Shown piece by piece: positions 11,738-15,387 of a stretch of DNA of 64,000 nucleotides (position 1 is the first letter of the stretch; the number at the start of each line of letters is the position of its first letter). The notes beneath the pieces are model-generated. The model had not been told where the DNA came from and made no database searches. It saw nothing but the letters and a program-made list of their open reading frames with translations. Made by a program: the position numbers and the translations under genes. The DNA is from Chloroflexota bacterium (GTDB taxonomy: Bacteria > Chloroflexota > UBA11872): assembly GCA_028874175.1 (NCBI GenBank), contig JAPPLN010000113.1, forward strand, positions 44,059 through 108,058, given 5' to 3'.

Positions 11738-13939
11738 TCATTCGGTGGCCACGCGTCGAAGCGCCACCGCGCCATTTGAGCCAATAGCGGCGATAACCCA
11801 GTTGCCCGCAGCCATCGATGCGTCCGCGGCTGCGAGGTGCGTCCGACGAACACCGAACGCGGAACCCGGCTCCGGCACGAGCCGGCGAGCGATACCCCCA
11901 CCGGCCGCGACGGCCCAGATCTCAGAGGCGCCCGCGCTCGCAGTGCCCAGTCGATGGATGCCGTCTCCTGCGTCGACCACATAGCTGGAGGCAAGAAGGG
12001 GGCGCTGGCTTGTTGTCGGCGTGTGGAGCGCGAATGTTGCCGTGGGGCCGGACGGTAGGGCCCCGAGGCTGAGGGGCGCGGAGGCAACTCCGTGGTCTGC
12101 GTGGAAGGCCATGAGCCGCCGAGGGGTCGAGGTTACGCTGCCCAGCGGATCGGACGCGCGCAATTGAAATTTCCCCGCGGCGTCGGTCCACGCCGCGGTG
12201 CCGGAGTCGAAGCCGACGGCGATTACAAGAGCTCCCGAAATAGGAGTCCCATTTTCATCCTGCACGATTCCTGTGACTATGCGGCCATTGGATCGCCAGC
12301 CGGACAAGAAGTTAGCCAAATTGATCCGCTCGCTGTGCGTGAGAAGGGCTGCAGCGTGCGAGCCGTCAACCTTGGCTCGAGAGGCGCCGGCCAGTCCCGG
12401 CGCACGCGCGCCCAAGGGTGTGACGCCGTGACATGACGAGCACTGAGTGTCATACGTCCGGCGGCCGCGCTCGACGGTCGGAAGTGCAGGTAGCCCGGCG
12501 AGCGAGCCATCAATCACGGCTAACCCAAAGCCTGGAACGAAGACCGACGTTCCGTCGAACCAGGAAAGAGTCCAGGCCGTTTCGCCGCTGACGGCGACCG
12601 CAGGCGCTGCTGGCAACCCGGACACGCGCACGGTTCGGTGGCTTGGCGATAGATTCACGACAGCCGCCCGCGGTCCCTGGTCGGTGTCAACGACCAGCGC
12701 ATCGAGATCCGGCCCGCGCACATCTACCCGCGTCAGTCGTCCGGAACCCGCAACGAACCGGCGTACCAACTGCATGACCCCAAATGCCGGTGCCGGAGGG
12801 TCTGCAATCGCGCTGGACCACAGACCGAAGTCTGGTTCACCGCGAGGCGATTTACCCGATGGGTCGCGCGTTCCCTTGTATACCAGCAGGCCGCTGGCGC
12901 CCTGGCGCAGTGCGCGCAGGGTGGCGGAAGCCAGAAACGCGCCGTTGATCGGCGCATGGACCAAAGGATCGACCGCAAGATCGCCGTTGAAGTTGATTTC
13001 TTCCACATAGTGGGGCCGTCCGGCGGCGATTCCTGAAATCAGGCGCACGCGGTTTTCAAACCATGAGAGACGTGTGCCAAGGACGTCGGTCGACGTTGTT
13101 TCGCCGACGCGATGCATCCCGTACCAGTGCCACGTCAGGAAGTCGTGGAAGGATGCTGAGTCCACGGCGCGCAGATACGTGGACCAGTCCACGTCGGGCG
13201 CATTCCCGCAGGTCGGACTACCGTCGGGATTCAGCGTGGCGCCGGTGTCGATCGCGTCGAGCGACGGGCCGCCAATAGCAACCACGCCGGAGCCGAAGCG
13301 CCTGGCCGCGGCGGCGCGCGCCGCGGCATAGAGCTCCGCGTACGCGGCGCCGCTGCCGCAGGCGTAGTGCTGACCGGCGTTCTGATGATTGTTCGGCTCG
13401 TTCCAGATGGTGTAAGGCCACGTCAGCGCGACCGGACCGAAGTGATCACGCAATCGCTCAATGGCGTCCGCCACGTACTCGGCATACCCCCTGACGCCGG
13501 CGGCGTTGAAGCGTTCGCTCTCGTGCTGGGAACTTGGGGTGCCGTCGGCGGCAGTCACCCATGCCGGCGCGGCGACAAAGCTCACCATCGGCGTCGCGCC
13601 GGCGTCGAGAACTCGCTGCACGAAGGTATGGAGCCGGCTCCAGTCGAAGTCGGCGGGTGTGCTACCCGCCACAGCGCCGAGAAAGCGATGCCCCACCCAC
13701 ACGCGTACCAGATCGGCTCCGAACTGGGCGGCCCGGTCGATGCCACCGTCTCGATAGAGATCGACGATTTCGTTGGTGCCCAGCTTGAAGTCGAGCGACT
13801 GCGCGAATCCCGTCGAAGGTTGATCGAGATGAACCTTGATGTCTGGCGTTGGCGAGCCACCGAGCAGCAGGCTGCCCAAGAGCAGTGCGCAGGCAAAGCG
13901 AGCTGCGCGGCGCCAGCGACCGGGCAGACCGCTGCCCAT
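11738..13939 (-). CDS. Secreted glycoside hydrolase-like protein fused to a cytochrome c motif and a carboxypeptidase-regulatory-like domain
   Basis: The 733-aa protein starts with a Sec-type signal (RRAARFACALLLGSLLLGG). Residues about 45-400 form a clan-A TIM barrel like GH39/GH5: TIWNEPNNHQ carries the presumed acid/base Glu (about 181), and PHYVEEINFNGD (about 310-320) the presumed nucleophile. A beta-sandwich-like stretch follows (about 400-480). Next comes a heme c motif CSSCH at about 500-504 inside RGRRTYDTQCSSCHGVTPLG, ending HSERINLANFLSGW. No methionine lies between CSSCH and that helix, so the distal heme ligand is unclear. Then GIVQDENGTPISGALVIAVG looks like a carboxypeptidase-regulatory-like fold, and the tail is unassigned. 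Substrate unknown. Five bases separate it from the upstream oxidoreductase gene. Confidence 0.8.
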   Translation of the reverse strand: MGSGLPGRWRRAARFACALLLGSLLLGGSPTPDIKVHLDQPSTGFAQSLDFKLGTNEIVDLYRDGGIDRAAQFGADLVRVWVGHRFLGAVAGSTPADFDWSRLHTFVQRVLDAGATPMVSFVAAPAWVTAADGTPSSQHESERFNAAGVRGYAEYVADAIERLRDHFGPVALTWPYTIWNEPNNHQNAGQHYACGSGAAYAELYAAARAAAARRFGSGVVAIGGPSLDAIDTGATLNPDGSPTCGNAPDVDWSTYLRAVDSASFHDFLTWHWYGMHRVGETTSTDVLGTRLSWFENRVRLISGIAAGRPHYVEEINFNGDLAVDPLVHAPINGAFLASATLRALRQGASGLLVYKGTRDPSGKSPRGEPDFGLWSSAIADPPAPAFGVMQLVRRFVAGSGRLTRVDVRGPDLDALVVDTDQGPRAAVVNLSPSHRTVRVSGLPAAPAVAVSGETAWTLSWFDGTSVFVPGFGLAVIDGSLAGLPALPTVERGRRTYDTQCSSCHGVTPLGARAPGLAGASRAKVDGSHAAALLTHSERINLANFLSGWRSNGRIVTGIVQDENGTPISGALVIAVGFDSGTAAWTDAAGKFQLRASDPLGSVTSTPRRLMAFHADHGVASAPLSLGALPSGPTATFALHTPTTSQRPLLASSYVVDAGDGIHRLGTASAGASEIWAVAAGGGIARRLVPEPGSAFGVRRTHLAAADASMAAGNWVIAAIGSNGAVALRRVATE

Positions 13940-13944
13940 TGGGA

Positions 13945-14949
13945 CTAGGTCCGACTTACGACTTCGCGCTGCCCGGAGACCGAGGACTGCCGAATCGCAG
14001 CCAGCACCTCCAGCAGGTGGACGCTGTCTTCGGGCGGTGAGCCGTTGGGGGCCGCGCCGCCGATTACGGCCAGGAAGTGATCGTCGGGATTGCTTCCGCC
14101 GGAGAGTCCTTCGACTTCACGCGTGACCTTGGCCTCGAGATCGTCCTCCAGAATGACTTCAACGCCTCCCGAGGCCCAGTCCGCGCGGATGGCGCCGCCG
14201 CCGCCAACCACCGCCAGGCGCTCCCCGAACGTGTGGCCGGTACCGATGATGGACAACGTGCCGATGGCGCCGTTCTCGAAGAGCAAAACGGCCGCGCCGT
14301 CGACCTCCACTTCCAGGTCGTAGGTACGCATGCGCGCGTCCACTTCGACGATGCGCAAGCCGGTAGTCCACAGCAGCATGTCCATGAGATGGCTGCCGGA
14401 GTCACTGAGCTGTCCACCGCCGCCCAGGGCCAGCGTGCTTCGCCACTTGCCTCGTGCGGCGCCAATCCAGGCCTGCCACTGGCTGGCTTGCACGTGGGTG
14501 ATGTCACCCATCTCGCCGCCCTGCAGGCGCTGGCGCATATAGGTGTAGCCGGGACTGAATCGACGCTGGAAGCCAACCACTACGTGTTGGCCTAGAGCCT
14601 TAGCGTGATCGGCGATCTCTTGGGCCAGTTCGGGGGTGTGGGCGAGCGGCTTCTCGCAGAGCACGTGTAAGCCGGCATCCAGGGCGCCCATGACATGCTC
14701 GTAGTGAAGGGTATGCGGGGTTGAGACCAGCGCTAGTTCCAGATCGGTCGCGGCCAGGAGGTCACGCCAGTCGGCGTATGCTGGAACTTCGTCCAGGCCT
14801 TCAACATTCGACCGCGCGTTCGCGATTGACGTGTCAGACGGATCCGCCATACCAACCACGTCAACCTCTGGCATCGCGAGGAATCGCCGCAGGTGGCCGG
14901 CGGAGTTGCCGCCAACGCCAATGGCGCCTAGTCGGTATGGCATGGACAT
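13945..14949 (-). CDS. Gfo/Idh/MocA family NAD(P)-dependent oxidoreductase
   Basis: Probably oxidises or reduces a sugar, inositol or related polyol using NAD(P). The N-terminal Rossmann motif is RLGAIGVGGNSAGHLRRF, followed by ADPSDTSIAN and the family hallmark LHVLCEKPLAHTPELAQ. C-terminal half has the GFO_IDH_MocA alpha/beta domain (SDSGSHLMDMLLWTTGL) with the conserved His. 334 aa, usual length. It is the first gene of a minus-strand pair whose second gene is the GH-cytochrome fusion, so both may act on the same carbohydrate (inference). An in-frame ATG two codons downstream is an alternative start. Confidence 0.88.
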   Translation of the reverse strand: MSMPYRLGAIGVGGNSAGHLRRFLAMPEVDVVGMADPSDTSIANARSNVEGLDEVPAYADWRDLLAATDLELALVSTPHTLHYEHVMGALDAGLHVLCEKPLAHTPELAQEIADHAKALGQHVVVGFQRRFSPGYTYMRQRLQGGEMGDITHVQASQWQAWIGAARGKWRSTLALGGGGQLSDSGSHLMDMLLWTTGLRIVEVDARMRTYDLEVEVDGAAVLLFENGAIGTLSIIGTGHTFGERLAVVGGGGAIRADWASGGVEVILEDDLEAKVTREVEGLSGGSNPDDHFLAVIGGAAPNGSPPEDSVHLLEVLAAIRQSSVSGQREVVSRT

Positions 14950-15011: not shown

Positions 15012-15314
15012 CTATGCGTCGCGGGTGGTCGGGTCTCCAGGCGCAAACTGACCGCCGTACGGGAGGGGAAGTCGCTCCACGGTCTCACGGAACGTCCCAC
15101 GCCCCTTCAGCAGATCGTGCACGTCCCAGCCCTCGGCTTCCAAATGTTCAAGCACATAGGCCAGTTCGTAGCGATCGCCCGTTTCCTCGTCGATGAACGC
15201 GTCGGTCCAGGCGAGCTGGTGGCGCGGCACCGGAAAGGTTCCCTCGCCGTTGCGGCGGGGAATCTGAAACCGGAACTCGGATACGCGGATGTGGCGACGG
15301 GGCTCGCTGGTCAT
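15012..15314 (-). CDS. Conserved-looking small hypothetical protein
   Basis: Protein of 100 residues beginning MTSEPRRHIRVSEFRFQIPRR. I do not recognise it. It is soluble and charged, with no signal peptide or membrane segment, and has aromatic/acidic stretches (HQLAWTDAFIDEETGDRYEL, YVLEHLEAEGWDVHDLL). The ATG was preferred to the TTG eight codons upstream. Codon usage is like its neighbours, which supports a real gene. It lies between an oxidoreductase and a methyltransferase on the same strand. Confidence 0.6.
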   Translation of the reverse strand: MTSEPRRHIRVSEFRFQIPRRNGEGTFPVPRHQLAWTDAFIDEETGDRYELAYVLEHLEAEGWDVHDLLKGRGTFRETVERLPLPYGGQFAPGDPTTRDA

Positions 15315-15387
15315 ATGGGTTTCTGGTCGTGGGCCCAAACGGCCCGGCTGGCTTGGGTGCGATTGTGAAGAGCGCGCCCGCCCTGTG

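Follow-up and report, generated by a model that had tools for sequence, protein, structure and literature searches.

The window, by which is meant the whole 64,000-nucleotide stretch of Chloroflexota DNA that was analysed, carries on its minus strand an open frame that begins with an ATG at position 13939, ends with a stop at 11738 and is translated into 733 aa. The gene is flanked on one side by a bifunctional-nuclease-domain gene and on the other by a series of genes for a Gfo/Idh/MocA oxidoreductase, a 108-aa protein, a methyltransferase and a nucleotidyltransferase. Its product consists of a hydrophobic N-terminus, a clan GH-A barrel, a beta-sandwich, a CxxCH domain, a CarboxypepD_reg-like domain and a last beta domain. 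Essentially this order had been read from the sequence in an initial annotation, and it is borne out by Pfam, the structural model and the homologues. The features are as follows:

13945..14949, minus strand: upstream Gfo/Idh/MocA oxidoreductase (Pfam); its stop lies 5 bases before the fusion ATG
11738..13939, minus strand: whole gene, glycoside hydrolase-cytochrome-beta protein of 733 aa (open frame and eight full-length homologues without stops)
13844..13939, minus strand: hydrophobic N-terminal export signal or anchor, residues 1-32 (by inspection; conserved in kind)
12740..13843, minus strand: clan GH-A (beta/alpha)8 barrel, GH39-like, residues 33-400 (Pfam GH39; Foldseek)
13397..13399, minus strand: E181 of WNEPN, predicted acid/base (invariant in nine sequences; just after model strand 175-178)
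12998..13003, minus strand: E313-E314 of EEIN (invariant in nine sequences; in model strand 311-316)
12494..12739, minus strand: beta-sandwich after the barrel, residues 401-482 (model strands, pLDDT about 72-88)
12284..12493, minus strand: compact monoheme c-type cytochrome-like domain, residues 483-552 (Pfam Cytochrom_C; PDB match 8qk0)
12428..12442, minus strand: CSSCH, residues 500-504, heme attachment motif with proximal His504 (CxxCH in 9/9 homologues)
12356..12358, minus strand: His528, candidate distal heme ligand (invariant, +24 from His504 in 9/9)
12020..12283, minus strand: CarboxypepD_reg-like beta domain, residues 553-640 (Pfam below cut-off; 9/9 homologues match)
11741..12019, minus strand: C-terminal beta domain, residues 641-733 (strands, pLDDT mostly above 80)

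In the AlphaFold2 model of the 733-aa protein (mean pLDDT 67), the barrel extends to about residue 400 and the beta-sandwich to about 477, followed by an uncertain segment (481-539) and then by further beta domains. A helix at residues 7-26 lies within the hydrophobic N-terminus, which on inspection is plausibly a signal peptide or an anchor; the signal peptide of the initial annotation is therefore one of two readings. Neither a CBM nor a YceI domain was recognised in the fusion protein. Towards the C-terminus, Pfam CarboxypepD_reg aligns to residues 555-603 with 30.0 bits, just under the cut-off of 32.3, and each of the nine homologues matches it at E<=0.01. His613 and Asp615 (HxD; window 12095-12103) are invariant in this beta domain, which follows the heme segment. 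Residues 641-733 had no family match in Pfam, and a Foldseek search with the C-terminal part returned generic immunoglobulin-like matches only.

The barrel was assigned from a Pfam Glyco_hydro_39 match at residues 98-337 (27.4 bits against a cut-off of 26; E 1.9e-6). The same family is matched by 9/9 homologues at E<=0.01, with eight of the nine above the cut-off in the genome search, and within 19 genomes of the family GH39 matches are found in the nine carriers of the fusion and no others. Because the score is marginal, clan GH-A is the safer label than GH39. Foldseek searches with the barrel returned GH30, GH79 and GH39 enzymes, including PslG, at E values of 1e-10 to 1e-15. No solved glycosidase is more than weakly similar in sequence, and the barrel is therefore filed as clan GH-A, GH39-like, with no substrate named. 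The catalytic glutamates that had been proposed in WNEP and EEIN hold up well: E181 and E313/E314 do not vary among the nine sequences, and the model positions them beside or in barrel strands, as expected for strands 4 and 7. By analogy with GH39, E314 is presumably likelier than E313 to be the nucleophile. Two cysteines of the barrel, residues 194 and 244 (window 13358-13360 and 13208-13210), are also invariant; as judged from the sequence, they may possibly form a disulfide of an exported protein.

Eight homologues were recovered from GTDB genomes, all from Chloroflexota metagenome-assembled genomes and none with an internal stop; as the scan used a single-sequence query, it reaches close relatives only, and more distant examples outside the phylum may have escaped it. 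Among 400 genomes spread over the phylum there are nine carriers, six from the genus of the window and three from a second genus, all within the window's own Chloroflexota family, which is represented here solely by metagenomes. Eight of the carriers correspond to the GTDB homologues, and the ninth is the genome of the window itself. All carriers hold the whole architecture in one frame, at 46-90% identity. A search for the same domain order in other genomes, proposed with the initial annotation, thus finds it in nine genomes, each time as a single uninterrupted frame, and an assembly join of two genes is ruled out. The fusion of a clan GH-A protein with a predicted monoheme domain is a real and conserved pairing. 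No glycosidase-only homologue was present at E<=0.001 among 41 genomes of the class, and a plasmid search gave no match.

The heme segment matches Pfam Cytochrom_C at residues 489-525 with 22.9 bits (cut-off 21.3), as do seven of the nine homologues at E<=0.01. The single heme c motif noted initially is confirmed, in that CSSCH is the sole CxxCH in the window's frames of more than 150 residues; by chance, a CxxCH appeared in 21 of 20,000 shuffles of the fusion protein. Conservation of the motif among homologues had been named as a check, and both cysteines and the histidine are invariant in the nine sequences, the variants being CSSCH, CSACH, CAQCH, CAACH and CAGCH. Between residues 489 and 552, nine of 64 positions are invariant (G492, Y496, C500, C503, H504, G505, P514, S527 and H528), and identity between the two genera is about 36% over the heme segment. 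The second genus has a 5-residue insertion ahead of the CxxCH and a short deletion past H528; indels thus flank the H504-H528 stretch on both sides, with none inside. For closely related pairs, dN/dS is 0.23-0.54 in the heme segment, which indicates purifying selection that is weaker than in the barrel (0.08-0.16).

As had been remarked for the window's protein, no Met is available as a ligand: none occurs within 50 residues after the CxxCH in any of the nine sequences. The accompanying suggestion of a His as the second ligand gains support, since the invariant H528 at its fixed spacing is a likely candidate for this role. Some c-type hemes are five-coordinate. Confidence in this region of the structure is low (pLDDT about 35-60 in two AlphaFold2 runs with nine sequences). 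Cytochromes are the top PDB sequence matches of the segment, and 8qk0 ranks best in the single-sequence search and second when a profile is used. This structure is domain III of Geobacter sulfurreducens PgcA, in which a single heme has bis-His ligation; domains I and II of PgcA have a Met at +27 (PMC11520253). However, phmmer aligned the distal His of domain III near residue 535, away from H528, and residue 535 is His in only three of the nine sequences. The PgcA match therefore does not prove H528 as a ligand, although it does make a small tethered monoheme domain plausible.

In the second genus, the fusion gene is found at the same place in the opposite orientation. It is cleanly absent from the locus in ten genomes of the family, where the flanking genes retain the same order, and carriers are scattered over the tree of flanking proteins. 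An old gene lost several times appears to fit these observations better than repeated gain at one place, and inspection of the tree suggests about six losses. The clean absence from ten relatives suggests a dispensable accessory function, and the gene is probably such an accessory. Since the flanks are kept without it, the neighbours, which include glycosyltransferases and an NDP-sugar-type nucleotidyltransferase, are no reliable clue to a substrate. A constant partnership with the Gfo/Idh/MocA gene is likewise ruled out, because first-genus genomes without the fusion still have this oxidoreductase, and the locus of the second genus lacks it. The 108-aa protein (window 15012-15338, minus strand) has no Pfam or NCBIfam match; it is conserved, and its position is syntenic, in nearly all of the 19 family genomes. 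Judging from their names, some of these metagenome-assembled genomes presumably come from sponge studies. Glycan-degrading potential has been described for sponge Chloroflexi symbionts (PMC6306507).

With respect to heme attachment, the genome of the window encodes CcmF and CcmC, the latter with its tryptophan-rich motif WGVWWQWD, and contains six other cytochrome c matches. In several of the other cytochromes of these genomes, a Met lies in its usual context (TMP, RMP) and the connecting segment is longer. Three long proteins of same-family relatives (L046, L049 and L055) start with a Met-type cytochrome c domain, after which comes a region that, by eye, resembles a sorbosone/glucose dehydrogenase-type propeller. 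Three further proteins (L025, L047 and L054) combine a Met-type cytochrome c, a Pro/Thr/Ala-rich linker and two WPTxCVDLNDIVExHLGN units; in the genome of the window this arrangement is at G000:C113:46837-46962. The search for oxidative glycan enzymes in that genome covered AA10 LPMOs and GSDH-type dehydrogenases. No recognisable AA10 LPMO was present in the genome, which is about 92% complete; an AA10 LPMO is thus unlikely as partner, and the best-known role of such heme modules, the feeding of LPMOs, is without a visible partner.

A hydrolase has no need of electrons and does not produce any. If the heme is present, it would therefore serve something beyond the hydrolytic step, be it the placement of a carrier, sensing or structure. 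The preferred reading, to which about even chances are given, is that of an exported clan GH-A glycan-cutting enzyme with a tethered monoheme c module whose partner in electron exchange would be a separate protein outside the cytoplasm. The barrel would cleave its glycan with retention, E181 acting as acid/base and E314 as nucleophile. The module of about 60 residues, which follows the catalytic part and precedes the two C-terminal beta domains, would receive its heme c via Ccm outside the membrane and hold it by His504 and His528, probably as a bis-His site. As no other redox centre is recognised in the chain, the heme would most likely be a one-electron relay, the exchange taking place with a surface redox protein, and the enzyme would hold the heme at the glycan or cell surface. 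Two features favour electron exchange, namely the similarity of the segment to proven carriers and the presence of a fixed candidate for the sixth ligand. A tighter link, in which electron transfer via the on-board heme c switches or accompanies hydrolysis and so ties glycan cleavage to extracellular electron flow within one chain, is considered unlikely.

Other roles for the heme have to be weighed against electron exchange. It could be attached but mainly structural or vestigial, in what would be a plain secreted glycosidase that, for instance, trims the cell's own polysaccharide like PslG. The faster divergence of the heme region than of the barrel is in line with this, as are PslG among the fold matches and the glycosyltransferase and nucleotidyltransferase genes nearby; yet the CxxCH and H528 have been retained at the same spacing in a region that has otherwise largely changed, and the neighbouring genes persist in genomes without the fusion and so are not specific partners. 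This explanation is accordingly held to be unlikely. A redox or gas sensor, in which ligand exchange or oxidation state rearranges the neighbouring domains and tunes hydrolysis, would suit the position of the heme domain between the catalytic part and the beta domains, and no partner protein is evident. However, a fixed candidate distal His suggests a six-coordinate heme, which is more usual in electron transfer, and a sensor is regarded as distinctly unlikely.

A role as electron donor to a separate enzyme that cleaves glycans oxidatively, such as the isolated X183 domain (CjX183) of Cellvibrio japonicus Cbp2D can play towards LPMOs, is very unlikely: this role has been proposed for the closest described architecture, but it meets the lack of an AA10 LPMO in the genome. 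Finally, the CxxCH region might carry no heme at all and instead bind a metal ion or form a disulfide. The heme is itself predicted from sequence, and model confidence in the region is low; nevertheless, a Cytochrom_C score above the curated cut-off, cytochromes as the leading PDB matches and an apparently exported protein in a Ccm-bearing genome make this highly improbable.

A predicted glycosidase that bears a conserved heme c motif presents a clear puzzle, and one that can be addressed on a single protein. Should the heme be active, a hydrolase would join the oxidative enzymes and binding modules through which carbohydrate breakdown is linked to electron transfer, and the bacterial lineage concerned is represented here by metagenome-assembled genomes alone. 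Within the limited searches made, the joining of a c-type cytochrome to a GH-A hydrolase appears to be new: in the open-licence literature searched, neither a glycoside hydrolase fused to a c-type cytochrome nor a GH39 enzyme with heme was found. The rarity claimed for such proteins in the initial annotation should be taken with caution, since cytochrome c modules on carbohydrate-binding modules have been described (PMC8981238).

Each part of the fusion has known counterparts. GH39/PslG-type clan GH-A enzymes share the WNEP acid/base, a second Glu on a later strand and a beta-sandwich after the barrel, although they are very remote in sequence. The monoheme domains of PgcA (structures 8QJ6, 8QJG and 8QK0), which carry electrons when tethered (PMC11520253), are small like the heme segment of the fusion, solvent-exposed and built of short helices, with the CXXCH in the first. 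In contrast to the fusion, PgcA is an electron carrier with three hemes and (PT)x linkers, and its distal ligands lie at +27 (Met) or +32 (His), compared with +24 for the candidate His of the fusion. A heme domain is also tethered to a carbohydrate-active enzyme in AA8-bearing cellobiose dehydrogenase and AA12 quinohemoproteins, but there the heme is of the b type and the protein's own oxidoreductase catalytic domain supplies the electrons, which a hydrolase does not. Cbp2D consists of CBM2, X158, FN3 and the c-type cytochrome domains X183 and X132, and its isolated X183 domain reduces LPMOs (PMC8981238). Further domain combinations are listed in the supplement to that paper, and related redox proteins in Teredinibacter are treated in PMC10916295. 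As predicted for the fusion, Cbp2D is a secreted multi-domain protein that combines carbohydrate modules with small c-type cytochrome domains, each with a single CxxCH. However, Cbp2D has a carbohydrate-binding module and no glycoside hydrolase barrel among its described domains, whereas the fusion bears a GH-A catalytic domain with conserved catalytic Glu on the same chain.
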